IMG/VR virus record: IMGVR_UViG_3300027976_000041
Coordinates: 1-60,274 of that record
Reading direction: 5' to 3' (one strand)
DNA length: 60,274 nt
DNA from: a virus
A model generated the notes under the pieces. The model saw only the letters and a program-made list of their open reading frames with translations, did not search any database and had not been told where the DNA came from. The stretch's first letter is position 1. Each line of letters begins with the position of its first letter. The position numbers and the translations under genes were made by a program. Positions 43,009 to 60,274 of the stretch are shown here, piece after piece.

Positions 43009-43009
43009 A

Positions 43010-43201: not shown

Positions 43202-43202
43202 T

Positions 43203-43409
43203 TTAGTTCCTAAAGTTAAGTTTGTAATCAATCATACAATCGACCCACGCGTTTTGGTAGATCAAAAGTTCTTTCCATGTGGGATGGTTCACATCCTCAT
43301 GCATAGTTGTAACTTCTTCTAAGATCGGCATAGACATAAAGAAGTTCATACTTACGTGAGCGATCTCGCCGTCGCCCAAAATTTCACGTATTTCGTCGGT
43401 TGTTCTCAT
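43203..43409 (-). CDS. unknown small protein
   Basis: 68 residues. The start overlaps the stop of the segE-like gene as ATGA. The C-terminal part (WKELLIYQNAWVDCMIDYKL) is helical. No family recognised. Confidence 0.6.
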   Translation of the reverse strand: MRTTDEIREILGDGEIAHVSMNFFMSMPILEEVTTMHEDVNHPTWKELLIYQNAWVDCMIDYKLNFRN

Positions 43410-43849: not shown

Positions 43850-43991
43850 CCGAATCGTCTGAGTTATCTAAATCAAGAGGGTCGGCGCAGACTGGGCAAT
43901 ATGCTACTTCGGCGTCATCGAAGTCGTCTCCTAGTTTTATCAATCCTCGAGTCTCGCATGAATCGCAGAAGAAGCTTATTTTTTGTGTCAT
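43839..43991 (-). CDS. small zinc-ribbon protein
   Basis: 50 residues, read from the sequence. FFCDSCETRG and YCPVCADPLD supply two CxxC pairs 23 residues apart, a zinc ribbon, followed by an acidic tail (DLDNSDDSDDV). It overlaps the start of the segE-like gene. Probably a regulatory or adaptor protein. Confidence 0.7.
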   Translation of the reverse strand: MTQKISFFCDSCETRGLIKLGDDFDDAEVAYCPVCADPLDLDNSDDSDDV

Positions 43992-44016
43992 AATGGTTAT
44001 CTAAGTTTATATAAAC

Positions 44017-44274
44017 CTATTTAACGCACTCTTTTAAACTAAGTAACTCCGTGAAGCCCCCGATATAGATACCATCAACAAAAATAACCGGAACAGCGCG
44101 AGCGGTCGGCGCTAATTTCATAAGGTCTTCTCTAATGATATAAGTTAGTGTGGTATCTTTCTCTTGGTTTATATCTACATGAATTTCTTCAAAAACCAAC
44201 CCCCTCTTTATAAGAAAATTCTTTGCTTGGACACAGTAAGGGCAATTTGGCTTGGAATAAATTATTATCATCAA
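44017..44274 (-). CDS. glutaredoxin
   Basis: 85 residues. The active site is CPYC (residues 11-14) in YSKPNCPYCVQAKNFLIKRG; VPVIFVDGIYIGG holds the cis-Pro and glutathione-binding GG. It overlaps the nrdB stop by 4 bases, so it is translated with the reductase it probably reduces, as NrdC serves T4 NrdA. Confidence 0.93.
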   Translation of the reverse strand: MMIIIYSKPNCPYCVQAKNFLIKRGLVFEEIHVDINQEKDTTLTYIIREDLMKLAPTARAVPVIFVDGIYIGGFTELLSLKECVK

Positions 44275-45371: not shown

Positions 45372-45396
45372 TTTTCATTTCCATTAAATAAATTTC

Positions 45397-45404
45397 TATA
45401 AATA
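45397..45404 (+). promoter_or_regulatory. T4-type late promoter for the homing endonuclease between nrdB and nrdA
   Basis: Perfect TATAAATA on the plus strand, 58 bases before the ATG at 45463. Confidence 0.65.
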
Positions 45405-45407
45405 GGT

Positions 45408-45436
45408 GGTACTCGCGGTTTCTGAGACCCAGTACC
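45408..45436. repeat. leader hairpin of the homing endonuclease transcript
   Basis: GGTACT/AGTACC outer stem with an inner GGTTT/AGACC stem. It begins 4 bases after the late octamer. On the minus strand it would lie in the nrdA-nrdB intergenic RNA. Confidence 0.65.
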
Positions 45437-45462
45437 ATTAGCCAACTCAACAAGGAGCCTTT

Positions 45463-46224
45463 ATGGCCAAGTCATATACTTATCATTACGCATACCGTAT
45501 CACAAACAAGGTAACCGGAATGCACTACTACGGTGCACGTAGTTGTAATATCGAACCAAAACTAGATCTCGGTTACATTTATCCCGGCTCACTCTCAAAT
45601 AAAGAGGGTGTTATATTCGTGGCCGATCAAAAAACTAATCCCCGAAACTATAGGTACAAGGTTGTTCAAATATTTGAAACTCGCATACTGGCAATATCAC
45701 GCGAAATAATCCTCCACGCCATGTTCAACGTGAAGTGCCATCCAAAGTTCCACAATAAGTCAAACCAAACATCCACCGGATGGGATACCACTGGTACGAC
45801 CATGCCAGAAGGAGCTACGTTGAAGCGACTTAGTACCCGAGCGAATAATGATGCACTCCTAACATTAGCTAAAAGGGAAAAACGTGCCGCTGACCGAACA
45901 GCGCGCCGCATTGCAAAGGCGGCCGGTGGATTCGTTCGCAAAAAGCAAACTCCAATATCTTCAGAAGCAAATGCCATCAAAAAGCAAAAAGAAAGATATA
46001 CACGGGCCATAAATGATGCACGCAGATCACCAGAAGATACAGCGACAAATTACGCAAAGAGACTTGCATCATGGGCTCAAACTATGGCTAATGGTTTCGA
46101 GCACCCGAATAAGGGAAGGAGCCCTTCGGCGGTCTCCGAAGCATCTCGCCTGGCCTCCAGAGATAGAAACCAAGCAGCCGGGAAGATTTACAATAAACCC
46201 GGGCCCAAGATTAATAGATCATAG
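45463..46224 (+). CDS. GIY-YIG-type homing endonuclease between nrdB and nrdA
   Basis: 253 residues. The N-terminal 115 (YAYRITNKVTGMHYYGARSC, IEPKLDLGYIYPGSLSNKEG, EIILHAMFNV, QTSTGWDTTGT) are clearly related to the gene at 40459. The C-terminal half differs: a Lys/Arg/Ala-rich helical region instead of the three repeats. AGGAGCCTTTATG start context is shared with its sibling. The 3' end overlaps nrdA by 6 bases on the opposite strand. T4 itself has the unrelated homing gene mobE at this same nrdA-nrdB junction. Confidence 0.85.
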   Translation: MAKSYTYHYAYRITNKVTGMHYYGARSCNIEPKLDLGYIYPGSLSNKEGVIFVADQKTNPRNYRYKVVQIFETRILAISREIILHAMFNVKCHPKFHNKSNQTSTGWDTTGTTMPEGATLKRLSTRANNDALLTLAKREKRAADRTARRIAKAAGGFVRKKQTPISSEANAIKKQKERYTRAINDARRSPEDTATNYAKRLASWAQTMANGFEHPNKGRSPSAVSEASRLASRDRNQAAGKIYNKPGPKINRS

Positions 46225-48486
46225 CGTACACGACTCGCATGGCTCTTCGTCATCTGGTGCATCCAAACTTATTAGAGCATTTTCGGTTGTATTAAGATCA
46301 ACTCCATCAGAAGTTAGGCTCACGACATAATATCTTGTCTTCATTCCGAACTTCACCATGTCCAGGTAGTCGTTGATCATGCTCGATGATGTTACCTTAT
46401 CGTCGCCGACGATTCTCACAAACAGGTCGGCACTAATACCTTGGTCGGTCCACTTTTGCATCACAGCATATACTTTGATCATGTCTGTCGTGGCTATATC
46501 CCATGCAGACTGATATCGAACCTTCAGCTTTGTCGAATCGGGTGCGCACCAGTGATTCACTGCAGTATCGTTTGTCTTCATGATGTATGTTTCACGAATA
46601 GGGTATGGTCCATTCGTAGTACCTGAACTGATACTGCTAGACTCGCCTGGCATATAAGCTGCTAGCACAGAGTTACGAATTCCGCCGTTCTTGATGATTT
46701 TTGATCTGAGTGATTCCCAGTCTCGTTTGTTTTCAATCGTAACCAAACCACCCACCCGCTTTTCATAGGTATCGATAGGCAACCATCCAGATGGCCATTT
46801 TGTTTTGTTCATCCATGGAGCATTACCGAGTTCTTTACCAAGACGCAATGACGCGTTGATGAGATGATATATGTGTGTCTCAGCAAGCTCGTGAATAAAG
46901 TTCAAACCATCTTGATCATCATACTTTTTGTTCTTCATCGCCATAAGGTGTGCAAGACCCATCATACCAACGCCAGCCGACATACGAGCTTTTGCTGTAT
47001 CGTCTAGATTTTTGAACACATAGTCAGATTTGAAGATACACACGTCGATCATTTTAAGACTGTAATAAGCAGCATCGGCATACATCTCATCTGATTCGAT
47101 ATTCGATACGACAATCCCAGCAAGGGAACAGAGCCCTATTTCGCCGCCGCCTTCTGTATATGATTGATACAGACCTGCGACCGATTTATATGCTGATGTC
47201 GGAAGAGCTATTTCGGCGCATAAGTTACTTGAATAAATTTTGTCGTTAAACGGTGTATGCTGATTCATCATGTCGGTCATATGAAGATACTGAACCCCGG
47301 TTTCATACGATTGGGTTAGGGCGGCCAACAATACATCGCGGGCATTTAGTTTATGGATTGACGTTTTTTCAAACTCGGCATACATTTCTTCAAATTTCGT
47401 TTGATCGGTGTCGTACATCGCTTCATACATCTCTGGATGTGTAGAGTATGAGAACAGTGAGTACAACTCGTTCCGGGCCGCGCGCCGAGCAAATAGCTTA
47501 TTGGATCCAAAGTTATAATGACAGCCGCCGATCTTTTTGCTGGCAGGCGTCATTGGATGCTTTAGCTTCATAATCACCTCGACCTCTGGGTCAAAGCATG
47601 TGTAATACACAGTTGACGCGCCCCCGCGACCATTCTGCATGTTCGCGCCAATAGCTCCAACCATGGCGCGATAGTAGGGTAGTTTGCCCTGATGCTGGAT
47701 CATACCGCCACGGATTGGATCGCCAAGCGATCGCGTCTTAATGTGGGTACCGATACCCGCGCTCATGCACGTCATCATATACGCAATGTGATCGCCCGCA
47801 GCCAGACTTGGTGCAGAGTCGTGGGTTGTGTACAGACAGCACGACGCATAGCCGTTCAGTGCAGTACCGAGATTCACGAAGTTTGGGGTCGGCGCGTTGA
47901 TACGATTGTGAGCGAAGTGCTCGTACCACTTGGCCACGTGGAGCAAACGGTCGGACTTTTCATTCTCCCCTAGTGCCATGGCCATACGCATATACACGAA
48001 CTGAGCGGTTTCATATTCCAGTTTAGTAACCTTATTACGGATAGCATACTTGTTACGGATCTGATTCAATTGGAAGTGAGGATATTTCAAGTCGATTTTA
48101 TGATCAATGACACTCTCAAGATGTTCATAGTCATCGTCTGTATAGTTCAGTTTTACCATAAGACCTGCATCAAACAACCGAGAGTGCAGTTTTTTGATAG
48201 TTGGTCGGCCAGTTGGATATATGATGCGCGTCAAGAGGGCTGAGTATAATCGACCAGCCATGCGGTTGTATTCCCACGTCTTCCGATTAATACATACGTT
48301 GATAAGAGTCTCTTGAAGCTGCAAGGAACTACATTCGGTTGGACATTGATTAACTGCTTCAAGAATAACCGTTGACCATTCAACATGACCATTCAATGTC
48401 TTAGCTGCCCACATTCCCCAACCGTTTACTTTAGAAGGAGAGAATGGTTGGGTAGAACCATCCCGCTTGATGATAGTCTCGATCAT
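46219..48486 (-). CDS. nrdA: class I ribonucleotide reductase, large subunit
   Basis: 755 residues (E. coli NrdA: 761). An ATP-cone-like N terminus (IIKRDGSTQPFSPSKVNGWG) provides allosteric control. Active-site parts: NGYASCCLYT and GEIGLCSLAG hold the reducing Cys pair; SSNLCAEIALP has the radical Asn-Cys-Glu triad. AAYMPGESSS is a substrate-binding loop. The C terminus ends CESCTL, the shuttle CxxC reduced by glutaredoxin. It starts 4 bases within the 210-residue gene (ATGA). Confidence 0.96.
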   Translation of the reverse strand: MIETIIKRDGSTQPFSPSKVNGWGMWAAKTLNGHVEWSTVILEAVNQCPTECSSLQLQETLINVCINRKTWEYNRMAGRLYSALLTRIIYPTGRPTIKKLHSRLFDAGLMVKLNYTDDDYEHLESVIDHKIDLKYPHFQLNQIRNKYAIRNKVTKLEYETAQFVYMRMAMALGENEKSDRLLHVAKWYEHFAHNRINAPTPNFVNLGTALNGYASCCLYTTHDSAPSLAAGDHIAYMMTCMSAGIGTHIKTRSLGDPIRGGMIQHQGKLPYYRAMVGAIGANMQNGRGGASTVYYTCFDPEVEVIMKLKHPMTPASKKIGGCHYNFGSNKLFARRAARNELYSLFSYSTHPEMYEAMYDTDQTKFEEMYAEFEKTSIHKLNARDVLLAALTQSYETGVQYLHMTDMMNQHTPFNDKIYSSNLCAEIALPTSAYKSVAGLYQSYTEGGGEIGLCSLAGIVVSNIESDEMYADAAYYSLKMIDVCIFKSDYVFKNLDDTAKARMSAGVGMMGLAHLMAMKNKKYDDQDGLNFIHELAETHIYHLINASLRLGKELGNAPWMNKTKWPSGWLPIDTYEKRVGGLVTIENKRDWESLRSKIIKNGGIRNSVLAAYMPGESSSISSGTTNGPYPIRETYIMKTNDTAVNHWCAPDSTKLKVRYQSAWDIATTDMIKVYAVMQKWTDQGISADLFVRIVGDDKVTSSSMINDYLDMVKFGMKTRYYVVSLTSDGVDLNTTENALISLDAPDDEEPCESCTL

Positions 48487-49115
48487 TTTTTATTTCTTTT
48501 CTTGTTTATTTTTCTCAGAGTGCTTTGGAATTCTGCAATGTCTTCAGTTAGATCTGGGTGAATGTCCATCACTGGTACAAAATCGGTTATAACTTCTAAT
48601 TTATCTTCGACAATCAATTCGAAATATTTAGGTTCAACTATAGGAGTCATTTCAATTGTCTCAAAACCAGATGCTAGAATATCTTGAAATTCCTCACTGA
48701 GCGGATCAATAGTTATCACAGAATTATCAACAACTATCACTGGTTCGAGTGATTCATTAATTATCAATTGTTCTTTTGTGGCTAGTAATTGCCATGGGTT
48801 CATCAATTCAGGTTCGCTAATGATGTTAACTGCTATGACAGGAGTCATTTCGATAATGATAATCTCAGGCTTACCAAACACAAGCTTAGGTATGATCGTA
48901 TATAACTTACCACGAACATGTTCCTGATTTTTTATATCACCGGTCAACTTCATGATCACTGTAGATTTATCTGAGTTAATGTTGGCATAATTGTATAACT
49001 CAGAATAGAATGAATCGTTTTCCAACCAATATTCGTGTGTGTCGGTATTGATAATAATTATATTATCATCAACGGAGCACCAATTATTTTTTTGATAATG
49101 TTCTTTCATTAGCAT
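48483..49115 (-). CDS. unknown protein between primase and nrdA
   Basis: 210 residues, very rich in Ile, Val and Glu. It has short internal repeats (IIEMTPVI/TIEMTPIVE) and a basic C-terminal tail (LRKINKKRNKK). It overlaps the primase stop and the nrdA start, so it is coexpressed with both. A second ATG at 49109 has better spacing to AGAAGA. No family recognised. Confidence 0.65.
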   Translation of the reverse strand: MLMKEHYQKNNWCSVDDNIIIINTDTHEYWLENDSFYSELYNYANINSDKSTVIMKLTGDIKNQEHVRGKLYTIIPKLVFGKPEIIIIEMTPVIAVNIISEPELMNPWQLLATKEQLIINESLEPVIVVDNSVITIDPLSEEFQDILASGFETIEMTPIVEPKYFELIVEDKLEVITDFVPVMDIHPDLTEDIAEFQSTLRKINKKRNKK

Positions 49116-50125
49116 CTTCTTTCTAGGGCTAGAGATAATAGAGCTCCCGCCCCACTCTTTTTGTTACTTAATATGTATTGTTCGATGTCATTAGACGATA
49201 TCCCAGACTGAACAATTTCGTTGATATCTTTTTTCCAGTGATCTGGTAATAGACAGATCGTATAACCATTTATCACAGCCTTTTTCAATTGCAATAGCAC
49301 ATGGGGATTTCTACGAAAGTCATTGTCGGGTATGATAATCACCTGTTCTTTATGGGCTTCTAGAAAAGCGGACTTGTAACTAGCACGACCTATTCCAACA
49401 CAGTTATTAAGAAACATGGAATCGATCTGTCCCTCTACTACGAAAATGGGGGCTTTGATATCAATATGATTCAACCCATAAATAAATTCCTTTGTGTCGT
49501 CCGTTCTAAGATGGATATATTTTGGCTGTTCTTTACCAAAAGCCCGACAGCTAAACCCAAGTAGATTATTATTTAGGTCATAGTAGGGTATGATCAGTCG
49601 AGGCACGTCACGTTTGAACTTGGCGAAGATGGGATCGATTCGAGATGCCCATTTATAAAACTTTGGCGCTAGGAAAAATTGTATATACCGATGCTTTGGG
49701 ATACCACGGTCGATAATATACTTTACGGCTGGATTATTTTGATCAAGCTCGATGTATGAAACTAAGCCGTCAAGATAGTTTAGTTTTGGTTTTTCAATAA
49801 CAGCCACAGGTTCCACGAGCACGGGACGATATTCTTCTTTACTCTCCCATACGCCAGCCTTAAAATTCTCGAGACAATATTCTTTATATAGACCTGGATC
49901 GATATCTTGAATAAACTTGGAAAGGGGAAGAGACTCACCACAATTAAAGCATTTTAACAGGGTAACATTTTTATAAGTTAAAAAGTGACCACGCTTCTTG
50001 TTAGAATCGGAGCGTTCGCAAGTATGTGAAAAACTAGCAACAACTGATGCTGTGTTTTTGTATACAAGATTTCTTAGACGTGATGACACAAGCCCAATAA
50101 ATTTACGATCAATAATTATACACAT
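49109..50125 (-). CDS. gp61: DNA primase, T4 gp61-like
   Basis: 338 residues (T4 gp61: 342). An N-terminal zinc motif (CERSDSNKKRGHF, then LKCFNCGESL), and a TOPRIM domain with the catalytic Glu in IFVVEGQIDSMFL and the metal-binding Asp pair in VIIIPDNDF. It makes RNA primers for lagging-strand synthesis with the gp41 helicase. The ATG at 50123-50125 follows the -10 box by 5 bases, so its mRNA is predicted to be leaderless. Confidence 0.92.
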   Translation of the reverse strand: MCIIIDRKFIGLVSSRLRNLVYKNTASVVASFSHTCERSDSNKKRGHFLTYKNVTLLKCFNCGESLPLSKFIQDIDPGLYKEYCLENFKAGVWESKEEYRPVLVEPVAVIEKPKLNYLDGLVSYIELDQNNPAVKYIIDRGIPKHRYIQFFLAPKFYKWASRIDPIFAKFKRDVPRLIIPYYDLNNNLLGFSCRAFGKEQPKYIHLRTDDTKEFIYGLNHIDIKAPIFVVEGQIDSMFLNNCVGIGRASYKSAFLEAHKEQVIIIPDNDFRRNPHVLLQLKKAVINGYTICLLPDHWKKDINEIVQSGISSNDIEQYILSNKKSGAGALLSLALERRC

Positions 50126-50204: not shown

Positions 50205-50405
50205 TTAAGAACCGCCGCTACGTTGATACATATCTAATACATAGCTAATTACTTTCGCCGAATTAAGCCCCCAGGTCTCGCTTGGGCTTTTAAATCTAAG
50301 TGCGCTATTCTGGCTGTGCCACCACATGTTAACTAATTCCTGTGATCCAAGCATGGCCATTAGAAATGGGGCCAATTGCTCTTTAGTTTCTATATTATAG
50401 ATCAT
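50205..50405 (-). CDS. small protein resembling the MbcA/ParS/Xre C-terminal domain
   Basis: 66 residues. MLGSQELVNMWWHSQNSALR followed by SPSETWG and a short helix recalls the toxin-binding domain of Xre/MbcA-type antitoxins (GxxExxxxWWxxxNxAxxGxxP). There is no partner toxin nearby, so the role is open. Its start overlaps the clpP stop. Confidence 0.6.
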   Translation of the reverse strand: MIYNIETKEQLAPFLMAMLGSQELVNMWWHSQNSALRFKSPSETWGLNSAKVISYVLDMYQRSGGS

Positions 50406-51046
50406 TAAAACTCAATCGGGCCAATTCTATCGGCCATATTATATTGTACAACCTGTTCGGGCGCAAGATAAATATCATGATCTGTCACTAGAAACTTACG
50501 AATAATTTTCTCATCTAATCCAGTATGTTTAATATAATGCTGCATTATCATACGATCTAAACGGTCATACTCGCTCTGTAGGCTTTTGAGTTCCGTGTAG
50601 GAGCCCTCGGACACTGTATTGAAGTTATGGGTCAGTGTCATGCACGATGGCGTGATCACTCGGCGGCCCTTCGCGCCAGCCATGAAGATCAATAAACCGG
50701 CGGACTGAATCTGGCCGATACCAACGGTCTTGATTGGAATCTTGGATGCAGTAATGGCTTCAACAATAGCCATGCCGCCACACAAGTCGCCGCCTTCCGA
50801 ATTAATAAGAATCGTGAGTTCTGGCGGGGGATTATCGACAATATTCATCATAACAATCCACTGAACCATATCTGCCGCGGATTCGGTCGTTATCTCGGAG
50901 AATAATAAAAACGGCCCAAGTTTCTCTTGGAATTCGATTCTAGTTAAATCGAAATTCTCTTGTTTAATTGGGGTCTTTTTTGATACGGGCTTTTTGATTG
51001 GAGACCTTTTGATTGGAGACTTTTTGATTGGTGATTTTTTCGTCAT
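50405..51046 (-). CDS. clpP: ClpP-like serine protease
   Basis: 213 residues from the ATG at 51044-51046, with GAGAGG upstream. S14-family features: ILINSEGGDLCGGMAIVEAI, the nucleophile in GIGQIQSAGLLIFMAG (Ser 115), CMTLTHNF (His 140) and the Asp in TDHDIYLAP. The first 30 residues are Lys/Pro repeats (SPIKK/R x3) encoded by 15-base repeats that also code for the end of the cell-wall hydrolase. A late promoter (51094-51101) precedes it. It may process virion proteins or host proteins. Confidence 0.9.
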   Translation of the reverse strand: MTKKSPIKKSPIKRSPIKKPVSKKTPIKQENFDLTRIEFQEKLGPFLLFSEITTESAADMVQWIVMMNIVDNPPPELTILINSEGGDLCGGMAIVEAITASKIPIKTVGIGQIQSAGLLIFMAGAKGRRVITPSCMTLTHNFNTVSEGSYTELKSLQSEYDRLDRMIMQHYIKHTGLDEKIIRKFLVTDHDIYLAPEQVVQYNMADRIGPIEF

Positions 51047-51548
51047 TGACTGCCTCTCCAGTATAGAATATATGATTTCCGATCTGCATATGGTATTTAT
51101 ATCCGAATCGTTCATAAAACGATTTTACTGTAGTATTGTGAAAAAACAGAGATCCGACCGTATTATCTTTGATAGATTTAGATATCACCAAATTATAGGC
51201 TATCTCTTTAATTTTAGAGGATATTTTAGTGGCAATGGCTGTCGATTCCAACATATTAATAGTCCAAGAAAATTGATACGGTTGATAAACCACACCACAG
51301 ATACTATTTGGAAATCTAATATTTTTGACACGATTCATTGTGACGTGGCCCACGGCGATAATACCCATTTGAGACTCGCCGCGAGCCTCGTAATGGAGAT
51401 TGAGTTCCATACACCGGAGTTCTGTTTTTAGCTTTTTGTTTATTAGAACAAATTCTGGCTTCAGAATCATGTGACCAACGACTGCGTTGTGATAAAAAAA
51501 GCCGATTATAATATTTATGAATAGAATAGATTTAATTAATTTTTGCAT
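50964..51548 (-). CDS. SleB-type cell-wall hydrolase (candidate endolysin)
   Basis: 194 residues. It starts with a hydrophobic segment (LIKSILFINIIIGFFY), a signal or anchor. The Hydrolase_2/SleB domain follows: CMELNLHYEARGESQMGIIA (catalytic Glu in EARGE), VGHVTMNRVKN, FPNSICGVVYQPYQFSW, SLFFHNTTVKSFYERF and IGNHIFYTG. The last 20 residues are NQKVS repeats in the region shared with clpP. It could be a signal-anchor-release endolysin. No holin is recognised next to it. Confidence 0.85.
   Translation of the reverse strand: MQKLIKSILFINIIIGFFYHNAVVGHMILKPEFVLINKKLKTELRCMELNLHYEARGESQMGIIAVGHVTMNRVKNIRFPNSICGVVYQPYQFSWTINMLESTAIATKISSKIKEIAYNLVISKSIKDNTVGSLFFHNTTVKSFYERFGYKYHMQIGNHIFYTGEAVNDEKITNQKVSNQKVSNQKARIKKDPN
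50985..51040. repeat. 15-base repeats read in two frames
   Basis: Three near-identical copies of ttttgattggagac plus one base. They encode SPIKK/R in ClpP and NQKVS in the overlapping hydrolase. Confidence 0.85.
51094..51101 (-). promoter_or_regulatory. T4-type late promoter for clpP
   Basis: Perfect TATAAATA, 47 bases before the clpP ATG, inside the hydrolase gene. Confidence 0.55.
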
Positions 51549-52046: not shown

Positions 52047-53549
52047 TTATTCCTCAAAATCTTCGGTAGAAACCGTATCTGATTCCACACCATCTATAAA
52101 TGTAGAAAGTTCTACTTTAAATCCCCAAAGATTTTGAACGTGTTGCAATACGGCTAATGTATCCTTTTCGTGTAATTCAGAACCATCCTGGGAAATATAA
52201 TGGAGTTCTAAACGCCGGGTTGAATTTAGATTGGCAGAATATACTTGAATATTAGGAGTAATTTTAGATCGATCATATCTATTAGCTAGAGTAGCTCTAA
52301 TCTCTTTATAACCCTTTTCGTCATGAATTTGTTCAACGACATACGCACGATCATTTAAATCGGCGATCTGAAACATTCTAAATTCCCGCATAACCTTAGG
52401 CCCGAGGAACTGTCGTATACCCGATTCGTCGTTGTAGTTTGCAACAATATCTCGAATTACTCCAAAGTGATTGCCTTTGCCCGCAATGGCGGGAAACCAT
52501 TGGCGATCTTCTTCATCTGGTTTAGTACAGATTCGTTCTATATCACGCAGAATTGCCAGACCGAGTGCATAGGGATTAAAATTTGGGCCAACCTGCTCAA
52601 AGGTACCTTGACGCACAACAGCGGACTGTACATCTGCGATCTCAAGCATAGAGCCTTCAGAGATTAATCCCTTTTCATACAGCCGACCCAAAATATACAT
52701 GTGCGTATATGTGGCCATACCTTCATTAAGAACCTTTGTTTTCGACTGCCCATTAAAGTATGTTGCTATGGTGCGAACGATTCTAATTATCTCGCGTTTC
52801 CATGGGGCTAGTGATGGGGAGTGCTTTTCGATAAATTTTAGAATATTTTCTTCTGTATCGATAGGGAATTTCTTGTGTTCAGTTTCTATAACCTTTGGAG
52901 GTTCTGGTAATGTACTATCCATTACAATATCAACCTGTGATAAAAGATATTCTTCTCGAGCTAGACGATGAGCTGTATCTTCGGCTAGATTAAATACTTT
53001 CTTTTTTGTTTTATCAACCCCCTGTTGCTCTAGAGCGTGAGCTGAATCCAATATAGATTCCACTTCGCCTAGGCCATATTTTTCTTCGCAATTAGAGATA
53101 AATTTCTTAGCGAATGTAAGATAATCTATTATAGAATCCGCCATACCCAATTCTTTAAATAGATAGTTATGTTTAAAGAAATGATTGTGGCCGAATGCGG
53201 CGTGCGCTATAACTAGTGCTTGTATAGTTGCAGAGTTGCCCTCCATAATAAAATTGATACATGGGTTTGTGTTAATTACAATCTCATATGCCAGTCCGCT
53301 ATGGCCCTTCCTATAGTTATATTCATCTCTAGCAAATGATTTTCCAAAGCTCCAATGATTATATCCCGTGGTAAGGCCGACTCGACTATACGCATCTAGC
53401 ATCTGTTCGCTTGTAGTGATATAGAATGTGTTTGGATATATATCTAATCCCATTTCACTGATGGCGATTTTTTCACACTCAACTGCTATTTTAGAAATAG
53501 TATCGGCATTCCACTCGTTATCGACAAAAAGTAATTTAGATTTTTTCAT
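52047..53549 (-). CDS. spoVR: SpoVR-family protein
   Basis: 500 residues (E. coli YcgB: 510). HWSFGKSFARDEYNYRKGHS, AYEIVINTNPCINFIMEGNS, HAAFGHNHFFKHNYLF and NEGMATYTHMYI are hallmark segments. Conserved His and Glu residues could bind metal. In bacteria SpoVR/YcgB is found with PrkA and DUF444 proteins and is linked to sporulation or starvation responses; the biochemistry is poorly known. The start overlaps the DUF444 stop as ATGA. Confidence 0.95.
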   Translation of the reverse strand: MKKSKLLFVDNEWNADTISKIAVECEKIAISEMGLDIYPNTFYITTSEQMLDAYSRVGLTTGYNHWSFGKSFARDEYNYRKGHSGLAYEIVINTNPCINFIMEGNSATIQALVIAHAAFGHNHFFKHNYLFKELGMADSIIDYLTFAKKFISNCEEKYGLGEVESILDSAHALEQQGVDKTKKKVFNLAEDTAHRLAREEYLLSQVDIVMDSTLPEPPKVIETEHKKFPIDTEENILKFIEKHSPSLAPWKREIIRIVRTIATYFNGQSKTKVLNEGMATYTHMYILGRLYEKGLISEGSMLEIADVQSAVVRQGTFEQVGPNFNPYALGLAILRDIERICTKPDEEDRQWFPAIAGKGNHFGVIRDIVANYNDESGIRQFLGPKVMREFRMFQIADLNDRAYVVEQIHDEKGYKEIRATLANRYDRSKITPNIQVYSANLNSTRRLELHYISQDGSELHEKDTLAVLQHVQNLWGFKVELSTFIDGVESDTVSTEDFEE

Positions 53550-54823
53550 GGTGTATCTCTAGAAAAAATTTCCCGAAACACGGCATAAATTCCTGATGGG
53601 AATATCAATTTTTTCAAGACGATATTTTCGTGCGCAGTTCGCAATTTTTCATATAAGCCCCACAAACTTGTTTTTCTGATATCGGACATATTAAATGAAC
53701 TAACATGTTCTGAAGTTAATTCGGTATAGATAAAATACTGTAGTTTTGGCAATAAATCTTCTAAATATTTTTGTACGGCTGGATTATCACTTTCGAAATT
53801 ATCGCCGTCACTAGAAGAAGCACAATAAATATTCCATTCTTCTATGGGATATCTAGCCTTGATGATTTCTGTTACTAGTTTGAATGCTGTTGATACTATA
53901 GTGCCACCCGATTCTTTGCCGTAAAAGAATTCATCTTCATCGCACTCTTTCGCCTCAGTCGTGTGTCTGATAAAAACCACGTCTATATTTTTATATTTAG
54001 AAGATAAGAACATATGCAGAAGCATATAGAATCTTTTAGCGAGATCCTTTTCATATTCTCCGACAGAGCCAGATACATCCATCACACAAAACATCACCGC
54101 CTGGTTCATGGGTTTAGTTTGTATTTCAAACTTTTTATATTTTAGATCAATTGGATCAAGAAAAGTTATAGCATTGGCTTTTCGTTTTAATCGGGCGATT
54201 TCTTCAATAATAGAATCACGCTCTTCATCATCTAGTTCTTCAAATAATAGAATCTTTTCAAGCTCTAAGATTTTTCGAAGCTTTGGAAATTTCAGCGCGA
54301 TACGTCGCCCCAATGAATTTATCATTGACTGTTCTAAATCTAGTAGAGACGGGTTTCCAGAGGAAGAATATCCAGCTCGATTTCGTACAGTAGAGTTTAC
54401 TTGCTTTGATGATTTTTTGATAAAGTCCGGTAGTTCAAGCCCATCAAATAATATTTCGGCGTATTCTTCTTTGGATAAAACGAATTCGAATTCGTCTTCG
54501 CCGGAACCAGAATCAGATGCATCATTACCTTTGCCTTTATTCTTTTCGGGCTTTTTAATGAGATCATCGACAACGAATTCTTCATTTCCCGGAAGAACAT
54601 ACTTGCCTTTAACAGTATTCGGATCATGACGAAAATGCGGCTCTGAAATCCCATCGATCGGGATTTTAACTTTCTGTTGACCAGTATTAGTAATAGAACG
54701 CTCTGATACTGTATCCCGGATAGCTTTCTTAATCGATTCTCGTGCTCTTCTAATAAATCGGCCCCGATTGCCCAGTGACTTACCGCCCGGATTAGTTCTT
54801 CTATCAACAATAGTATGTGACAT
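53546..54823 (-). CDS. yeaH: YeaH/DUF444 VWA-like protein
   Basis: 425 residues from the ATG at 54821-54823; E. coli YeaH has 427. The N terminus VDRRTNPGGKSLGNRGRFIR matches the family start. AVMFCVMDVSGSVGEYEKDL is a von Willebrand-A MIDAS (DxSxS). IDVVFIRHTTEAKECDEDEF and FYGKESGGTIVSTAF follow as in YeaH. An acidic linker lies near residues 105-125. Partner of PrkA in bacteria. Coupled to its neighbours on both sides. Confidence 0.95.
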   Translation of the reverse strand: MSHTIVDRRTNPGGKSLGNRGRFIRRARESIKKAIRDTVSERSITNTGQQKVKIPIDGISEPHFRHDPNTVKGKYVLPGNEEFVVDDLIKKPEKNKGKGNDASDSGSGEDEFEFVLSKEEYAEILFDGLELPDFIKKSSKQVNSTVRNRAGYSSSGNPSLLDLEQSMINSLGRRIALKFPKLRKILELEKILLFEELDDEERDSIIEEIARLKRKANAITFLDPIDLKYKKFEIQTKPMNQAVMFCVMDVSGSVGEYEKDLAKRFYMLLHMFLSSKYKNIDVVFIRHTTEAKECDEDEFFYGKESGGTIVSTAFKLVTEIIKARYPIEEWNIYCASSSDGDNFESDNPAVQKYLEDLLPKLQYFIYTELTSEHVSSFNMSDIRKTSLWGLYEKLRTAHENIVLKKLIFPSGIYAVFREIFSRDTP

Positions 54824-54824
54824 A

Positions 54825-55157
54825 TTAAACTGAGAAGGATGATCCACAGCTACATGTAGATGTAGCGCCGGGATTATTCGTGACGACAAATTGTGCGCCA
54901 GCCAGATTGTCATTATAATCTATAATAGATCCAACCAGATACTGATAGCTCATTGCGTCGATCAAGAGGGTTACACCGTTCGTGACCGTGGTCATATCGT
55001 CTTCCTCGATATCTTCGGCGAACGCGAATCCGTAGGAAAAGCCAGAACAGCCTCCACCCTGTACAAAAACGCGTAGCATAAGACCGGGCTTGCCGTCTTC
55101 GGCGAGTAACTCTGCAACCTTTACGGCCGCTGATTCGGTAAAAATTATTTCTGTCAT
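54825..55157 (-). CDS. erpA: ErpA-like A-type iron-sulfur carrier
   Basis: 110 residues. Cys 37 in [11 protein letters not shown] and Cys 102/104 in STCSCGSSF give the three-Cys A-type site; PMS-like [20 protein letters not shown] resembles ErpA closely. It would hand Fe-S clusters to apoproteins. The start overlaps the IscA-like stop as ATGA. Confidence 0.92.
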
Positions 55158-55483
55158 ACTTTTTTGATGTGAAAACTTTCGCCGCAACCACACATTGTAT
55201 CGACGTTAGGATTGTCAAATTTGAACATCTGCTTGAGCCCTTCGGTGACGAAATCTATACGACTACCATCAAGATATTGTAGATTTATCTTATCGATCAA
55301 TACCGTGGCACCATATGCCTCAAATATATTATCTGTATCTGTTACATTGCCTGCTATTTCGAATGTGTGTGCCAAACCAGTACACCCAACCTTCTTGATA
55401 CCGATTCGCAATCCAATACCTGGCTGTTTCTCAAGTTGGTGGCGAATCTGTTTCGCGCAATTTTCAGTTAGTATGATTGCCAT
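55154..55483 (-). CDS. iscA: IscA-like A-type iron-sulfur carrier
   Basis: 109 residues. Cys 34 in VGCTGLAH and Cys 98/100 in [30 protein letters not shown] and FDNPNV are close to bacterial IscA (107 residues). AAGGC precedes the ATG. A late promoter (55499-55506) lies 16 bases upstream inside the hydrolase gene, so the carriers may be boosted late. Confidence 0.93.
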
Positions 55484-56042
55484 GGGAAAGCCTTATTATA
55501 TTTATAATGTCAACAAGTTCTGGGCTCTGGAGTACTTCAGTGTGCCCATAGTTCAGAATTATTTCATTTGACTGTTTATATAGTTCTCGTTGACTTTCGA
55601 TGGTAATAACCCCATCGTTTTTTCCAAACCATAAGACATCAAAACCGTGGGTAGTAACAATATTAGTCCATGGGCATGCCGGAGGCATATGTCGCGGGCG
55701 ACTTGTCCACATTCCAGTTCTACTCAACATTATTAACCAGTGTGGTATCCGATTGAATGATGACCAGAAGCTAACGTATTTACTACCGCCCCAAGGTGTT
55801 CCAATAGAGATTCCGTGAGTTACAAGCTCTGGATTCCGTTTAGCCAAATGCCAGGCATAAAGACCGCCCATGCTGTGTCCAACAACGATGCACGGTTCGG
55901 TGATGTGCTTCTCCATCGCGATGAGATTATCTTCCGGCGATAATGTCATTTCCCAAGATAAACGAGTATTTGACATATGCGCACCGACCCAATTCCAGGA
56001 TATATTTGATGCATGTGCGCCATGAATCAATAGGATTTTCAT
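55464..56042 (-). CDS. alpha/beta hydrolase
   Basis: 192 residues from the ATG at 56040-56042. KILLIHGAHASNISWNW contains the oxyanion HG. VVGHSMGGLYAW has the nucleophile Ser (GxSxG). LWFGKNDGVI supplies the Asp and NYGHTEVL the His. Family members are esterases, lipases or thioesterases; the substrate is unknown. It lies 4 bases after prkA and overlaps iscA, so it is an integral operon member. Confidence 0.88.
   Translation of the reverse strand: MKILLIHGAHASNISWNWVGAHMSNTRLSWEMTLSPEDNLIAMEKHITEPCIVVGHSMGGLYAWHLAKRNPELVTHGISIGTPWGGSKYVSFWSSFNRIPHWLIMLSRTGMWTSRPRHMPPACPWTNIVTTHGFDVLWFGKNDGVITIESQRELYKQSNEIILNYGHTEVLQSPELVDIINIIRLSHGNHTN
55499..55506 (-). promoter_or_regulatory. T4-type late promoter before iscA
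   Basis: Perfect TATAAATA, minus strand, 15 bases before the iscA-like ATG. Confidence 0.55.
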
Positions 56043-56046
56043 AATA

Positions 56047-57984
56047 CTAACTCTTGGCGATACGAAGATACCATTCAACTAAACGCCGGACGGTTTTTTC
56101 AGTGTAACCTTTTTCAATCATCCGTTTCAGGAATTCAGCATGTTTCTCGCCATCGGCTTTTGAGGCTTTTGCGCTAAAAGATATAACCGGTAACATTTCG
56201 TCAGTCGCGCTGAACATCTTTTTCTCGATCACTTCGCGTAGCTTCTCATAGGAAGTCCATGCGGGATTCTTACCCTTATTCTGAGCACGGGATCGCATTA
56301 CAAAGTTTACGACCTCGGCTCTAAAATCTTTAGGATTAGAAATCTGGGCGGCCTTCTCTATTTTCTCAAGTTCCTTATTCAGGACTGCTCGATCAAACAT
56401 CTGGCCCGTGTCGGCATCTTTAAATTCGATATCCTGAACCCAGTGATCAGCGTAATCGATATATCGGTCAAACATATGCTGACCGAAGTCGGAGTACGAA
56501 TCTAAGTATGCTTTCTGAATTTCATGGCCGATATATTCTTTATACTTCTCGGTCATGTGTATCTTAACAATCTCCAGTAAAGAGGTTGCCTGATCTTCTG
56601 GAAATTGCTCCTGTTTAATTGCGCGTTCTAATACATACATTAAATGCACGGGATCACACGAAACTTCAGTGGGATCAAAATTGTATGTTTGTGACAGGAT
56701 TTTGAAGGCGAATCGAGTAGAGATGCCACGCATGCCCTCATCGACTCCAGCATTCTCTTTGTACTCTTGGAGAGTTTTGGCCTTAGGGTCTTTGTCCCGT
56801 AAATTCTCACCGTTATATACAGCCATCTTCGAAACCTTGGAAGAATTTTCGTGCTCCTTCAGACGGGACAATACAGAGAAGTCTGCTAGAAGTTCCATAG
56901 TCATCGGTGCGCATGGGGCAGTTTTCAGGGATGATTCGCCTATCATCTTCTTGTATACTTTAACCTCTTCTGTGGTCCGGAGGCAATATGGAACTTTAAC
57001 AATATAGATACGATCCAAGAAGGCTTCGTTATTCCGGTTTGAACGGAATGTGATCCATTCAGCCTCATTCGAGTGAGCCAAAATAATTCCGTTAAATGGA
57101 ATCGCGCCGAGCCCTTCTTCAGTTCCGTTATAGTTACCTTCTTGTGTAGCAGTTAAAAGCGGGTGAAGAACTTTGATCGGTGCTTTGAACATCTCGACGA
57201 ACTCAAGGATACCCTGATTCGACAAACACAAACCTCCGGAATAGGAATATGCATCTGTGTCGGATTGAGAAAATTCCTCAAGCATCCTGATGTTAACTTT
57301 TCCGCAGAGAGCAGAAATATCTTGATTATTATCATCACCAGGTTCAGTTTTGGAAATTGCTACTTGATTCAGCTTTGAAGGCCACATCTTCATAACAGAG
57401 AATTTAGAAAGATCGCCGTCACATTCCTTGAGACGTTTCAGAACCCATGGTGATGGAATCTGATTTAGATAACGTGTCGGAATATTATATTCGGCTTCAA
57501 TATGTTCCTTCAGAGCTGGGTCAGTGAATAGACCGAGGGGAGATTCGAAAACTGGGGAAACTTGGTTACCGAACTTCAGTACGTAGATCGGTTGTTTTTC
57601 CATCATGTTTTTTAGACATTCCGCAATGGAAGATTTTGCTGAACCCACTGGTCCAAGTAGATACAATACCTGTTTACGTTCTTCAAGCCCTTGTGCAGAG
57701 TGTCGGAAGTAACCAACGATTCGTTCAATTGTATCTTCCATACCGTAGAGATCCGCGAAGGGTTTATAACGGCTGATGGTTCGATTTTGAAAAATACGTG
57801 ATAGTGTATGATCCGTAGATGTATTAATTACCTCAGGTTCACCGAACGACTTTAACATTCGCTCGGCTGGAGAGGCATAAGTGTCTGGAGAGGTTTTACA
57901 TAGGTCCAAATATTCTTCAAGTGAAAATTCTTCACTGTTCTTTGATTTTGCAACGTCGGAATACAGAGAAAACAGTTTATTCAT
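56047..57984 (-). CDS. prkA: PrkA/YeaG serine protein kinase
   Basis: 645 residues; E. coli YeaG has 644. AAA+ part: YLLGPVGSAKSSIAECLKNM (Walker A), FNGIILAHSNEAEW, RNNEAFLDRIYIVKVPYCLR. The C-terminal PrkA kinase-type domain is very conserved (GQMFDRAVLNKELEKIEKAA, NFVMRSRAQNKGKNPAW, KGYTEKTVRRLVEWYLRI). Bacterial PrkA/YeaG is a stress-induced kinase or AAA+ factor. First gene of the six-gene unit, with a late promoter 41 bases upstream. Full length with no missing motif. Confidence 0.96.
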   Translation of the reverse strand: MNKLFSLYSDVAKSKNSEEFSLEEYLDLCKTSPDTYASPAERMLKSFGEPEVINTSTDHTLSRIFQNRTISRYKPFADLYGMEDTIERIVGYFRHSAQGLEERKQVLYLLGPVGSAKSSIAECLKNMMEKQPIYVLKFGNQVSPVFESPLGLFTDPALKEHIEAEYNIPTRYLNQIPSPWVLKRLKECDGDLSKFSVMKMWPSKLNQVAISKTEPGDDNNQDISALCGKVNIRMLEEFSQSDTDAYSYSGGLCLSNQGILEFVEMFKAPIKVLHPLLTATQEGNYNGTEEGLGAIPFNGIILAHSNEAEWITFRSNRNNEAFLDRIYIVKVPYCLRTTEEVKVYKKMIGESSLKTAPCAPMTMELLADFSVLSRLKEHENSSKVSKMAVYNGENLRDKDPKAKTLQEYKENAGVDEGMRGISTRFAFKILSQTYNFDPTEVSCDPVHLMYVLERAIKQEQFPEDQATSLLEIVKIHMTEKYKEYIGHEIQKAYLDSYSDFGQHMFDRYIDYADHWVQDIEFKDADTGQMFDRAVLNKELEKIEKAAQISNPKDFRAEVVNFVMRSRAQNKGKNPAWTSYEKLREVIEKKMFSATDEMLPVISFSAKASKADGEKHAEFLKRMIEKGYTEKTVRRLVEWYLRIAKS

Positions 57985-58025: not shown

Positions 58026-58033
58026 TATTTATA
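58026..58033 (-). promoter_or_regulatory. T4-type late promoter for prkA operon
   Basis: Perfect TATAAATA on the minus strand, 41 bases before the prkA ATG. Confidence 0.7.
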
Positions 58034-58098: not shown

Positions 58099-58118
58099 CT
58101 AGTTTATCTTAGATCATT

Positions 58119-58325
58119 TCATATTCCTGATAGAGTCTCCTTGAGTTCCACCGCCTCCGGGTTACAAGAAGGCCAAGTGCAGGAGTGGCTCTGGGAGGTG
58201 TCGAGGGAAGCCCGCAGCGCATCCATCGCCCCATCAATTTCAGCAGGTAGGCAAGGCCCGCCGATACTTGTCTCGTTCAGTTGCTCAAGCCGCAGGAGAG
58301 CTAGCTTTAATACTTCGATGTTCAT
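58119..58325 (-). CDS. small protein with CTWPxCNPEA motif
   Basis: 68 residues. SHSCTWPSCNPEAVELKETL shares its Cys motif with the upstream gene's TYPCTWPACNPEAG, and the DNA around both motifs is nearly identical. It overlaps the upstream gene as ATGA. AAGGAGACACC is the ribosome site. Function unknown; typical of densely packed phage accessory genes. Confidence 0.65.
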   Translation of the reverse strand: MNIEVLKLALLRLEQLNETSIGGPCLPAEIDGAMDALRASLDTSQSHSCTWPSCNPEAVELKETLSGI

Positions 58326-58783
58326 GGTGTCTCCTTAGTTTGCTGCGCTATGGCAGCGTTTAGCACGATATAGAGATTCCGCATTTCTGTAGGTAGCCCC
58401 CTAGAAGCAACCTCGTCATTCCCATAGTCACACGGGTGCACATCTACATTGTTAAGTGCGAGTCTAACTACTGACTGTGCTGCTGCCCTCAACCCTTCGA
58501 TCTCCTTGGCTTGTGCAGGTGGTGAGGTGTAGAGCGGTCGGTCATCCTCACAAGTCTTGTGCCCCCAGATGCTTCCACCAATGGCTTGCCATGCAACAGG
58601 CTCCTGCTCCCCCGCCTCCGGGTTACAAGCAGGCCAAGTGCAGGGGTATGTGTCGATGGAAGCATCAGCCTTCAACTCCTCGATCTCCTTGGCTTGGCGT
58701 TCTAGTTCTTCAACAGCATCTTTGACGTCACCGTACTCTTCGTATAACGCACCTGCTCGGAGGTGTTCAATTAGTGTGCTAAT
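58322..58783 (-). CDS. EPVAWQ/PLYTSPP phage protein, probable ATT start
   Basis: 153 residues if it begins at the ATT at 58781-58783, where AAGGAGACGAA gives the same ribosome site as neighbouring genes. The first TTG is at 58675 and would give 117 residues with no usable site. Features: a coiled coil (AVEELERQAKEIEEL), CTWPACNPEA, then EPVAWQAIGG and PLYTSPPAQ, a module common in phages of Burkholderiales and relatives. Function unknown. Confidence 0.6.
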   Translation of the reverse strand: MSTLIEHLRAGALYEEYGDVKDAVEELERQAKEIEELKADASIDTYPCTWPACNPEAGEQEPVAWQAIGGSIWGHKTCEDDRPLYTSPPAQAKEIEGLRAAAQSVVRLALNNVDVHPCDYGNDEVASRGLPTEMRNLYIVLNAAIAQQTKETP

Positions 58784-58899
58784 TTCGTCTCCTTTGTTTG
58801 CTGCGCTATGGCAGCGCCGATTGCATCAGCCTTCAACAGCCGTATCTCAGCATGAGCCTTACCCAGCTGTAGGTCAAGCTCTCGTAGTTCTTCAGTCAT
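58771..58899 (-). CDS. 42-residue coiled-coil protein
   Basis: MTEELRELDLQLGKAHAEIR, then LLKADAIGAAIAQQTKET. GAGGAGAA precedes the ATG. Its end AAIAQQTKET repeats the end of the downstream 153-residue protein, a local duplication. Confidence 0.6.
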   Translation of the reverse strand: MTEELRELDLQLGKAHAEIRLLKADAIGAAIAQQTKETKLAH

Positions 58900-58955
58900 T
58901 TCTCCTCGGGGTCTTCTACAGTTCTATGTAAAACTTTTACTATCGTCTCCCACTC

Positions 58956-59237
58956 CTAATGAGTCATGATAGTTCGCAAGGTGCTATACGCCCCATTGCT
59001 TAGTTGCGTGCGCAATACAAATTCATAGTCTAATAACGCGCTGGCTCCGCTACCCAATACGATACAGTGCGTTGCGCCCATAAAGTTTTCTTCGTTTTTC
59101 TCTGTCCTCTCGATAGACTCTGCTGCGGCGGGGCGGATGCCGAGATAGTTGTAGCCGATGCCAACGGTAATTCCCCGCTGGTCGGCTACCCTTTTGTGAA
59201 GAAAACCGCCGTACATTGTTGAGTCAACTTTTGTCAT
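58956..59237 (-). CDS. unknown small protein
   Basis: 93 residues. AAGGAGATGAA precedes the ATG. It overlaps the upstream gene as ATGA. No motif recognised. Confidence 0.6.
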   Translation of the reverse strand: MTKVDSTMYGGFLHKRVADQRGITVGIGYNYLGIRPAAAESIERTEKNEENFMGATHCIVLGSGASALLDYEFVLRTQLSNGAYSTLRTIMTH

Positions 59238-59407
59238 TTCATCTCCTTCTTTTTCGGTAGTGCTTTTACATCATCAACCCACACTCCGCTGTCGGGCTTG
59301 GCTTTTAACGCCACATCATTTTCCCTGCCGTGGGCAAGATAGAAGCCGTTGCGGTCTGCCATCTCATTGGCAACTTCGTGTTGTCTTACTGTTTGCCATG
59401 CGTTCAT
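59234..59407 (-). CDS. 57-residue unknown protein
   Basis: Begins MNAWQTVRQHEVANEMADRN and ends ALPKKKEMK. AGGGGAACGAA precedes the ATG. ATGA overlaps on both sides. Confidence 0.6.
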   Translation of the reverse strand: MNAWQTVRQHEVANEMADRNGFYLAHGRENDVALKAKPDSGVWVDDVKALPKKKEMK

Positions 59408-59484
59408 TTCGTTCCCCTAAGTTTCTTCCACCAATAAAGAAGGCTCATGCCTTCAAATACGTCTCGCCAGAATTGTTTAGTCAT
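59404..59484 (-). CDS. 26-residue peptide
   Basis: MTKQFWRDVFEGMSLLYWWK plus KLRGTK. It is linked to both neighbours by ATGA overlaps, which supports translation despite the length. Amphipathic, Trp-rich. Confidence 0.45.
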   Translation of the reverse strand: MTKQFWRDVFEGMSLLYWWKKLRGTK

Positions 59485-59684
59485 TTGTAAAACCCTGTAG
59501 TTTTAAGCCACGCAATAAACGCGGCATAGACTGCCGTAGCCTCGTCGGTATCTTGCTCAATCTTCACGCCGTGGACGTAGAACCCGTCTGGCGATACGCG
59601 GAACATCTCAGCACCGCCCATAGGTGCGTGGAATGTGATTGAGTTTTTTGGCTCGGGTGCTGCTGTAATTTCAGTGTTGTTCAT
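59481..59684 (-). CDS. small conserved phage protein
   Basis: 67 residues from the ATG at 59682-59684 with AAAGGAGAG upstream. AEMFRVSPDGFYVHGVKIEQ followed by AVYAAFIAWL is a pattern widespread in phages of beta-proteobacteria. Function unknown. Confidence 0.75.
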   Translation of the reverse strand: MNNTEITAAPEPKNSITFHAPMGGAEMFRVSPDGFYVHGVKIEQDTDEATAVYAAFIAWLKTTGFYK

Positions 59685-60109
59685 ATCGATCTCTCCTTTA
59701 TGTGTCGCTCGACGTACTCGGCCTGCATCCAAGCCAAAGCTCCTAGCTGTTGATAAACGTCATCGTGGAAGTCGCACCACGCAGCCATTGCTGCGTCACT
59801 TCCGCTGCCTATGGCAAAAAACTTGTTTCTAAGTTTCATGGGGTATGGACTATTTTCATAGAGCCATACTCCCTCCGGCCCACCGACCAATAATGTCGAT
59901 TTATCTGCCTCGGCAATTTTGGGAAACTTTTCAATGTTAGCCCCCGCCTCTAACCACTTGATCATGGCTTCAGTGGCGCAAACCGTACCAGCACCCCCGA
60001 CAATAGCGTGCCCAACTCGTTGAATTTTCGTACGCTGCGTTTTTGTGTAGTAATACTCACCCTGTCTATCAGAGGCCATTGAGTTGCCATCGAATGCGAT
60101 TACAGTCAT
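59681..60109 (-). CDS. HslV/proteasome-like phage protein
   Basis: 142 residues. MTVIAFDGNSMASDRQ, then AIVGGAGTVCATEAMIKWL, LLVGGPEGVWLYE and FFAIGSGSDAAMAAW follow the beta-sandwich layout of Ntn hydrolases of the HslV type found in phages. The usual mature N-terminal Thr is not obvious, so activity is uncertain. AAGGAGACGAA precedes the ATG. Confidence 0.75.
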   Translation of the reverse strand: MTVIAFDGNSMASDRQGEYYYTKTQRTKIQRVGHAIVGGAGTVCATEAMIKWLEAGANIEKFPKIAEADKSTLLVGGPEGVWLYENSPYPMKLRNKFFAIGSGSDAAMAAWCDFHDDVYQQLGALAWMQAEYVERHIKERSI

Positions 60110-60274
60110 TTCGTCTCCTTCATAGCCGCGTCAATCTCAGCGCAAACTTCGCGCAGTCGGTTTTCTTGAGCATCCCACGCAACAGTCCCCGCAACAGTCC
60201 CCGCAACAGTCCCCGCAACAGTCCCCGCAACAGTCCCCGCAGCAGCCCCCGCAGCAGCCCACGCCGCAGCCCCC
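60106..60274 (-). CDS. protein with AGTV repeats, 5' end outside the window
   Basis: The last 55 residues are visible: Ala/Gly repeats (AAAG, then five AGTV units) followed by WDAQENRLREVCAEIDAAMK. It overlaps the HslV-like start as ATGA. The repeats come from the 12-base tandem at 60178-60260. Confidence 0.65.
   Translation of the reverse strand, partial: GAAAWAAAGAAAGTVAGTVAGTVAGTVAGTVAWDAQENRLREVCAEIDAAMKETK
60178..60274. repeat. 12-base tandem repeats
   Basis: Five copies of gcaacagtcccc and then diverged gcagcagccccc copies up to the window edge, in frame with the coding sequence. Such tracts vary in copy number by slippage. Confidence 0.85.

Follow-up and report, generated by a model that had tools for sequence, protein, structure and literature searches.

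What a phage gains from a bacterial stress operon, and why iron-sulfur (Fe-S) carriers should be lodged inside it, are the questions raised by a locus in IMG/VR virus record IMGVR_UViG_3300027976_000041. The window analysed is the whole 60,274-nucleotide (nt) stretch of that record, and the locus is its minus-strand segment 52047-57984, where six full-length genes free of internal stops lie head to tail: PrkA, a small alpha/beta hydrolase, an IscA-like and an ErpA-type carrier, DUF444 and SpoVR (Table 1). The trio formed by PrkA, DUF444 and SpoVR is of the YeaG, YeaH and YcgB type, proteins that are conserved across many bacteria without an agreed biochemistry. The favoured explanation, with a probability of roughly one half, is that the locus encodes the phage's own version of the bacterial PrkA-DUF444-SpoVR stress machine, expressed late and accompanied by carriers and a hydrolase that are separate accessories. 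The data point to a protein-remodelling machine over an iron-sulfur factory.

Pfam and NCBIfam profiles back all six family names. PrkA has both the AAA_PrkA and the PrkA C-terminal domains above their cut-offs (NCBIfam 1107 bits, cut-off 576), DUF444 exceeds the cut-offs of PF04285 and NCBIfam NF003707 (507.9 bits, cut-off 396), and SpoVR matches PF04293 at 460 bits (cut-off 27) and stays below the YcgB equivalog NF008737 (618.6 bits, 679 needed). Among the accessories, ErpA reaches 161.7 bits against NF010147 (cut-off 117), the IscA-like protein lies below the IscA equivalog TIGR02011 (113.4 bits, 150.6 needed), and the hydrolase scores 30.4 bits against Hydrolase_4 (cut-off 27). Successive genes, from PrkA to SpoVR, are spaced by +4, -20, -4, +1 and -4 nt. 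The initial annotation, which had described six full-length, tightly packed genes including a YeaG/YeaH/YcgB-type trio, is borne out by these open reading frames (ORFs), spacings and profiles. Its lengths of 645, 425 and 500 residues for PrkA, DUF444 and SpoVR are right, given an inner ATG at 54823 as the DUF444 start (the mechanical ORF has 455); the hydrolase start is likewise placed at ATG 56042, its mechanical ORF beginning at TTG. The operon is also phage-borne as claimed: the window is a T4-like myovirus fragment with baseplate, tube and tail genes, gp32, RNA and DNA ligase and ribonucleotide reductase (NrdA, NrdB and glutaredoxin at 44-48.5 kb), and operon codon use fits phage genes, with correlations of 0.87 to the phage middle genes and 0.74 to the structural genes.

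The trio is already known in phages and is common in phage contigs. Among the best 80 of 202 PrkA-related viral places, PrkA-DUF444-SpoVR stands in this order in 67, and of the other 13 all except L077 are cut by contig ends (12 loci). The same order is found in 74 of 80 bacterial loci, which are the best 80 of at least 593 PrkA relatives; contig ends cut five of the remaining six, L155 being the exception. Some viral sequences group with bacteria (L056, L075 and L076 for PrkA; L056, L075 and L077 for DUF444) and were kept in the counts; these four contigs may be mis-sorted bacterial ones. Annotated phages include 16 records matching PrkA and six matching SpoVR, cultured Thermus phages among them. 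YcgB-YeaH-YeaG has been published as a co-conserved triplet since 2007 (PMC2375023), and spoVR is described as the most abundant sporulation-related viral gene of a marine oxygen-minimum zone (PMC8940887). In the literature library searched, no paper brought up PrkA together with auxiliary metabolic genes. Enterobacter phage LAU1 was rejected as a trio phage: its YeaG/YeaH genes lie at the very start of the record (MN688132.1, 1-3308; L212) and resemble flanking host genes.

The window's PrkA falls into an all-viral set of four with L002, L003 and L049 (support 100/99), and its SpoVR groups with L002 and L049 (support 100/98). In the PrkA tree as a whole neither the viral nor the bacterial sequences form one clade, and the four label changes that the tree needs imply repeated gene movement or some mis-sorted contigs. 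As a separate observation, DUF444 and SpoVR are each split over two frames in both L003 and L004, by decay or by a shared sequence error.

Late expression is supported by the motif TATAAATA, which is taken here to be the T4 late-promoter motif and which stands upstream of both PrkA and the IscA-like gene. Of its 11 copies in the window, eight fall no more than 100 nt ahead of one of the 50 listed gene starts. The 55 control 8-mers made of the same letters have on average 0.95 such near-start copies out of 7.8, and the best control has four of 14. Together with the gene overlaps, the motif lends support, from the sequence, to the earlier description of a late unit. That phages keep an intact trio in the bacterial order, here behind a late motif, argues for its usefulness on the time scale of infection. 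Elsewhere in the window a divergent pair of the motif (23743-23780) separates the gene of a baseplate tail-tube cap from that of a TnsA-like endonuclease.

The initial annotation had judged intact all catalytic and binding motifs that it could check, which holds for the metal ion-dependent adhesion site (MIDAS) of DUF444, the carrier cysteines and the hydrolase triad. PrkA has a variant Walker A in which Lys117 and Ser118 are retained and the Gly before the Lys of the canonical GK[ST] is Ala. A like change occurs in six of 21 other viral sequences (L002, L003, L049, L064, L065 and L078) and in none of 32 bacterial ones; other AAA+ families tolerate this change. The DUF444 model has a mean predicted local distance difference test (pLDDT) value of 80.7, with a poor N-terminal part and a C-terminal VWA domain, whose matches, among those listed, reach Z 14.5-16.6 and include Midasin and Rpn10. 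By Foldseek the model matches chain 9qhe_G of the NorQD complex (E 1.2e-4), presumably the VWA of NorD. The MIDAS residues D249, S251, S253, T308 and D339 (DxSxS...T...D) are invariant in all 61 aligned sequences.

The reading of the SpoVR fold is the most useful new lead. A sequence search for solved SpoVR structures gave no convincing relative. The model (pLDDT 86.4) was given a second look with VIA-align over 998 Foldseek chains, and the 50 matches listed are gluzincin-type peptidases, assigned in part by title to families M1, M2/ACE, M3, M30 and M32; with them, as the best match at Z 12.5, is the putative lipoprotein 3o0y. The alignment to LTA4H has Z 10.2 over 181 residues at a root-mean-square deviation of 4.0. 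Helical models may, by the tool's own warning, reach Z values of this order by chance; the gluzincin reading is found persuasive because unlike peptidase families agree. Where M1 enzymes of the same bacteria have ALIAHELAHSW ... LWLNEGF, SpoVR has LVIAHAAFGHNHFF ... KVLNEGM. His116, His121 and Glu276 are conserved in 63 of 63 sequences and in three further phage sequences; two distant phage SpoVRs (25-26% identity) have the spacings HATGH and HVYGH in place of the window's HAAFGH. The position of the catalytic Glu of HExxH is held by Ala (Ala117) in all 63, and by Ala or Val in the three more, so that none of these sequences has an HExxH with its Glu. The three conserved residues could form a metal site, and on the model SpoVR is probably a metal-binding, non-peptidase protein. 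Among 11 papers bringing up both SpoVR and metalloproteins or metalloproteases, none appears, from title or abstract opening, to describe SpoVR as a metalloprotease.

On these features a mechanism can be proposed. PrkA, an AAA+ ATPase by family, would form a ring, with DUF444 as its MIDAS adaptor. Most likely the two make up an AAA+/VWA machine that works on SpoVR or together with it; by analogy with MoxR/VWA pairs, it would remodel SpoVR or a SpoVR-bound client. The phage would use the trio late, to sustain the protein quality control and envelope of a stressed or starved host until lysis, a role covered by the same joint estimate of one half; the gain may be host endurance, envelope protection or protein quality control. 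Hydrolase, IscA and ErpA would be accessories of the phage in their own right, which in this lineage have come to share the late transcript of the trio, and the carriers more likely meet a general demand for Fe-S clusters, or for iron in ribonucleotide reductase, than a demand of the trio. E. coli yeaG and yeaH work jointly under nitrogen starvation (PMC4664914). Resistance to antimicrobial peptides in S. typhimurium involves yeaH and, according to unpublished data, ycgB (PMC2375023). The models offer testable roles, DUF444 as a MIDAS adaptor and SpoVR as a metal-binding, peptidase-like protein without the catalytic Glu.

The genes near the trio in relatives suggest that one group of jumbo-type phages keeps it in a proteostasis neighbourhood. 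ClpX, ClpS and ClpP are found near the trio of G036, Hsp20, ClpS and ClpP near that of G040, FtsH, ClpS and ClpP near that of L049, and ClpS and ClpP near that of L003, in each case within a shared stretch of 10-35 kb; a ClpP-family gene is present anywhere in 17 of 50 trio records. These jumbo-type records (L335-L338, covering G036 and G040; L049; L003) are also of interest in themselves: they encode Clp components (ClpX, ClpP, ClpS), Hsp20 or FtsH of their own, along with a weak SufBD-like protein, in the stretch where the trio lies.

Several results weigh against the stress-machine explanation or its parts. Foldseek alone found no match to the SpoVR model at E <= 0.001, and hhalign of SpoVR with M1 peptidases gave a probability of 8%, though NEG aligns on NEG, so that it is a predicted model that carries the gluzincin reading. 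PrkA has been reported elsewhere as a kinase or as a protease, and a 2026 study describes a PrkA homologue with negligible kinase and protease activity (PMC13001217). The window's ClpP is divergent, its best phage family being a head maturation protease, and it is given no weight because it may be a head protease. Finally, the trio of L002 does have a carrier and a hydrolase nearby, which leads to the first rival.

In that rival, regarded as unlikely, the carriers would work for the trio. IscA/ErpA would deliver iron or an Fe-S cluster, and PrkA and DUF444 would open SpoVR or its client to receive it, much as NorQ/NorD make the insertion of FeB into nitric oxide reductase possible. It draws on the position of the carriers among the closely packed trio genes, the resemblance of the DUF444 model to a chain of the NorQD complex and the possible 2-His-1-Glu site kept in SpoVR; the NorQD paper itself deems iron delivery by NorQD unlikely. 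In ErpA, C37, C102 and C104 are invariant in nine of nine sequences, and C34, C98 and C100 of the IscA-like protein are present, as read by position without alignment; the hydrolase's Ser, Asp and His line up by eye in the four complete sequences of five.

Among the loci compared, the hydrolase-IscA-ErpA block between PrkA and DUF444 occurs only in the window. No carrier or hydrolase stands between these genes in the 76 of 80 viral loci that have both (four end before DUF444 and are uninformative on the six-gene order) or in any of the 80 bacterial loci. A search for the six-gene order elsewhere, proposed as a check at the outset, found it in none of 80 viral and 80 bacterial PrkA loci, the best 80 of 202 viral and of at least 593 bacterial relatives. 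In the flanks covered any carrier at all is seen in two of 80 viral loci and in none of the 80 bacterial ones, the latter count reaching to 8 kb or the contig end. One of the two is L002; the other, L018, has a weak ErpA-like frame (phmmer 38 bits) about 7 kb away, on the opposite strand, unreported by a PF01521 search of its record. Farther afield, a carrier adjoins ClpP in G036 (L059), with a hydrolase one small ORF on, about 23 kb from SpoVR, and in G040 (L063) ClpP and a hydrolase lie two small ORFs apart, about 19-20 kb from SpoVR. The hydrolases of L002, G036 and G040 are 24-27% identical to the window's.

A carrier was found anywhere in nine of the 50 trio records searched, and in eight of the 28 that are at least 40 kb long, against one of 31 NrdA-baited contigs of at least 40 kb. 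This contrast favours the rival and is weak because different baits were used for the two samples, which also contain near-copies; also on the rival's side is a weak SufBD-like match in three of the 50 trio records, two of them above cut-off. Three of the 31 NrdA-baited contigs (330-350 kb, completeness not known) carry PrkA, and none of these has a carrier, which counts against it.

When the carriers are taken as the starting point, they prove far more frequent in viral contigs than the trio. They occupy at least 591 places, and in none of the 80 loci closest to ErpA is a trio gene within reach; IscU is within reach in 34 of these, IscA in 26, NrdB in 12 and NrdA in 11. In L341 (7648-16211) the order NrdA-ErpA-IscU-NrdB-glutaredoxin places Fe-S assembly genes inside a ribonucleotide reductase cluster; the IscU-like frames here and in the carrier loci are presumed such from a reading of their sequence. 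The closest hydrolase found, of 192 residues and 38% identical, lies 3.4 kb beyond this cluster, and a single-sequence scan for viral relatives of the hydrolase found none, yet missed that one. Carriers and hydrolase thus exist in phages without the trio, since no trio gene is within reach in the ErpA loci and L341 has both elements.

The trio proteins, in turn, have no invariant Cys: the best columns reach 53 of 54 sequences in PrkA, 55 of 61 in DUF444 and 61, 60 and 58 of 63 in SpoVR. An Fe-S cluster on SpoVR is therefore not supported, and conservation speaks against a Cys-ligated cluster as a trait of the trio families, other ligands or clusters in some members being possible. The initial annotation had proposed that the carriers point to a trio that handles or needs an Fe-S cluster; that proposal is weakened by the Cys data and the ErpA loci. 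Co-occurrence of carriers and trio elsewhere, which it had made a test, has L002 and the eight longer trio records in its favour and the 80 bacterial loci against it. An Fe-S link of the trio is possible and not favoured, and the likeliest role of the carriers is that of a passenger pair or of a general iron supply, a caution against inferring function from one gene order.

In a second rival, likewise doubtful, the trio is an ATP-dependent protease in which PrkA unfolds, DUF444 delivers substrates and SpoVR is a metallopeptidase-like chamber. The modelled SpoVR fold, the ClpP, ClpX, ClpS and FtsH genes in the same stretch in relatives, and the degradation of casein reported for B. subtilis PrkA, as told in PMC13001217, all suit it. 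It is set back by the Ala or Val that replaces the catalytic Glu throughout SpoVR and by the negligible protease activity of the homologue in the same study. A bolder idea, which is a long shot, is that SpoVR is a mononuclear metal protein whose 2-His-1-Glu site sits on what was once a peptidase scaffold. PrkA and DUF444 would then be an AAA+/VWA machine dedicated to loading it, and the co-transcribed carriers the source of iron; if so, SpoVR would be the trio's missing client and the whole a new kind of metallo-insertase system.

It is improbable that the trio lets the virus persist by shielding the host or by bringing on dormancy or a spore-like condition, as has been proposed for viral spoVR in the oxygen-minimum zone (PMC8940887) and as might fit the finding that YeaG shapes metabolic heterogeneity under nitrogen starvation (PMC4664914). 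The late-promoter motif in a T4-like phage stands against this. So does the identity of the named bacterial relatives, which are Pseudomonadota; these bacteria are not known to form endospores.

Finally, that bacterial DNA joined to phage sequence makes the operon is very improbable, for while no second contig spans it and the adjoining 58-60 kb end deviates in codon use, its own codon use fits the phage middle genes, a phage-type late motif stands at it, its PrkA belongs to an all-viral set with a Walker A variant absent from the 32 bacterial sequences, and L002 has a similar gene set. Stretches identical to the window occur in three other IMG/VR contigs (L186, as DNA, window 43000-49215; L172 and L173, as protein), and the operon junctions lack independent confirmation because none of these spans them. 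Misassembly of the operon is accordingly unlikely, and the chimera with bacterial DNA that had been named as grounds for refutation is not obvious.

Table 1. Genes and promoter motifs of the operon, with two neighbouring genes, in window coordinates
Feature	Position	Strand	Remarks
T4-type late-promoter motif TATAAATA	58026..58033	-	begins 49 nt upstream of PrkA start
PrkA/YeaG-type AAA+ protein	56047..57984	-	645 aa; Walker A variant GPVGSAKSS
Small alpha/beta hydrolase	55464..56042	-	192 aa; triad Ser57, Asp143, His167; equal-length relative in L341
Second TATAAATA	55499..55506	-	begins 23 nt upstream of IscA-like gene
IscA-like A-type Fe-S carrier	55154..55483	-	109 aa; Cys34, Cys98, Cys100
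ErpA-type A-type Fe-S carrier	54825..55157	-	110 aa; Cys37, Cys102, Cys104
DUF444/YeaH-type protein	53546..54823	-	425 aa; C-terminal VWA/MIDAS domain ~239-424
SpoVR/YcgB-type protein	52047..53549	-	500 aa; predicted gluzincin-like fold, His116, His121, Glu276
Neighbour cell wall hydrolase (Hydrolase_2)	50964..51548	-	context only
Neighbour divergent ClpP/S14-type protease	50405..51115	-	context only

Outside the operon, the end of the window (58113-60274) has a G+C content of about 49% and a codon use unlike the rest (correlation 0.33-0.56); blastn of this segment among phages gave no match, and it is possibly acquired DNA or a join. An HslV-like Ntn hydrolase is encoded there (59681-60109), with short repeats at the extreme end. 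A TET-associated glycosyltransferase (TAGT) gene at 38539-39477 hints at modified phage DNA.

Several known systems come close to the locus. The phage IscU-IscA-ErpA clusters, such as that of L341 and some others near ribonucleotide reductase, have the same carriers, and L341 also has the closest hydrolase found; these clusters differ in that all 80 are without a trio gene within reach. L002 (IMG/VR 3300047160_024096) has the closest trio (PrkA 74%) and, in the same locus, an A-type carrier and an alpha/beta hydrolase; its order, however, is PrkA-DUF444-SpoVR-exonuclease-x-x-ClpP-x-carrier-hydrolase and then the contig edge, so that one carrier and a hydrolase only distantly similar to the window's lie downstream, behind the exonuclease and ClpP. 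The cultured Thermus phage MN1 has all three trio families, in the order DUF444-SpoVR-PrkA and with 25-29% identity in SpoVR and PrkA, and the Ralstonia jumbo phage RsoM2USA has SpoVR (ORF28) and PrkA (ORF30) in one neighbourhood (PMC8504454). The yeaG-yeaH/ycgB genes of Pseudomonadota share the three families, similar model lengths and, as counted above, the order, whereas all 80 loci are free of a carrier or hydrolase between PrkA and DUF444 and all 32 PrkA sequences have a canonical Walker A. MoxR/VWA pairs (NorQ/NorD, RavA/ViaA) likewise join an AAA+ ATPase to a VWA/MIDAS partner, the comparison being drawn at the level of AAA+ and VWA, with PrkA not assigned to the MoxR class; to our knowledge these pairs have no SpoVR counterpart. 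Within a module known from phages and bacteria, what sets this operon apart is the carrier-hydrolase block; the pairing of trio and carriers is rare.

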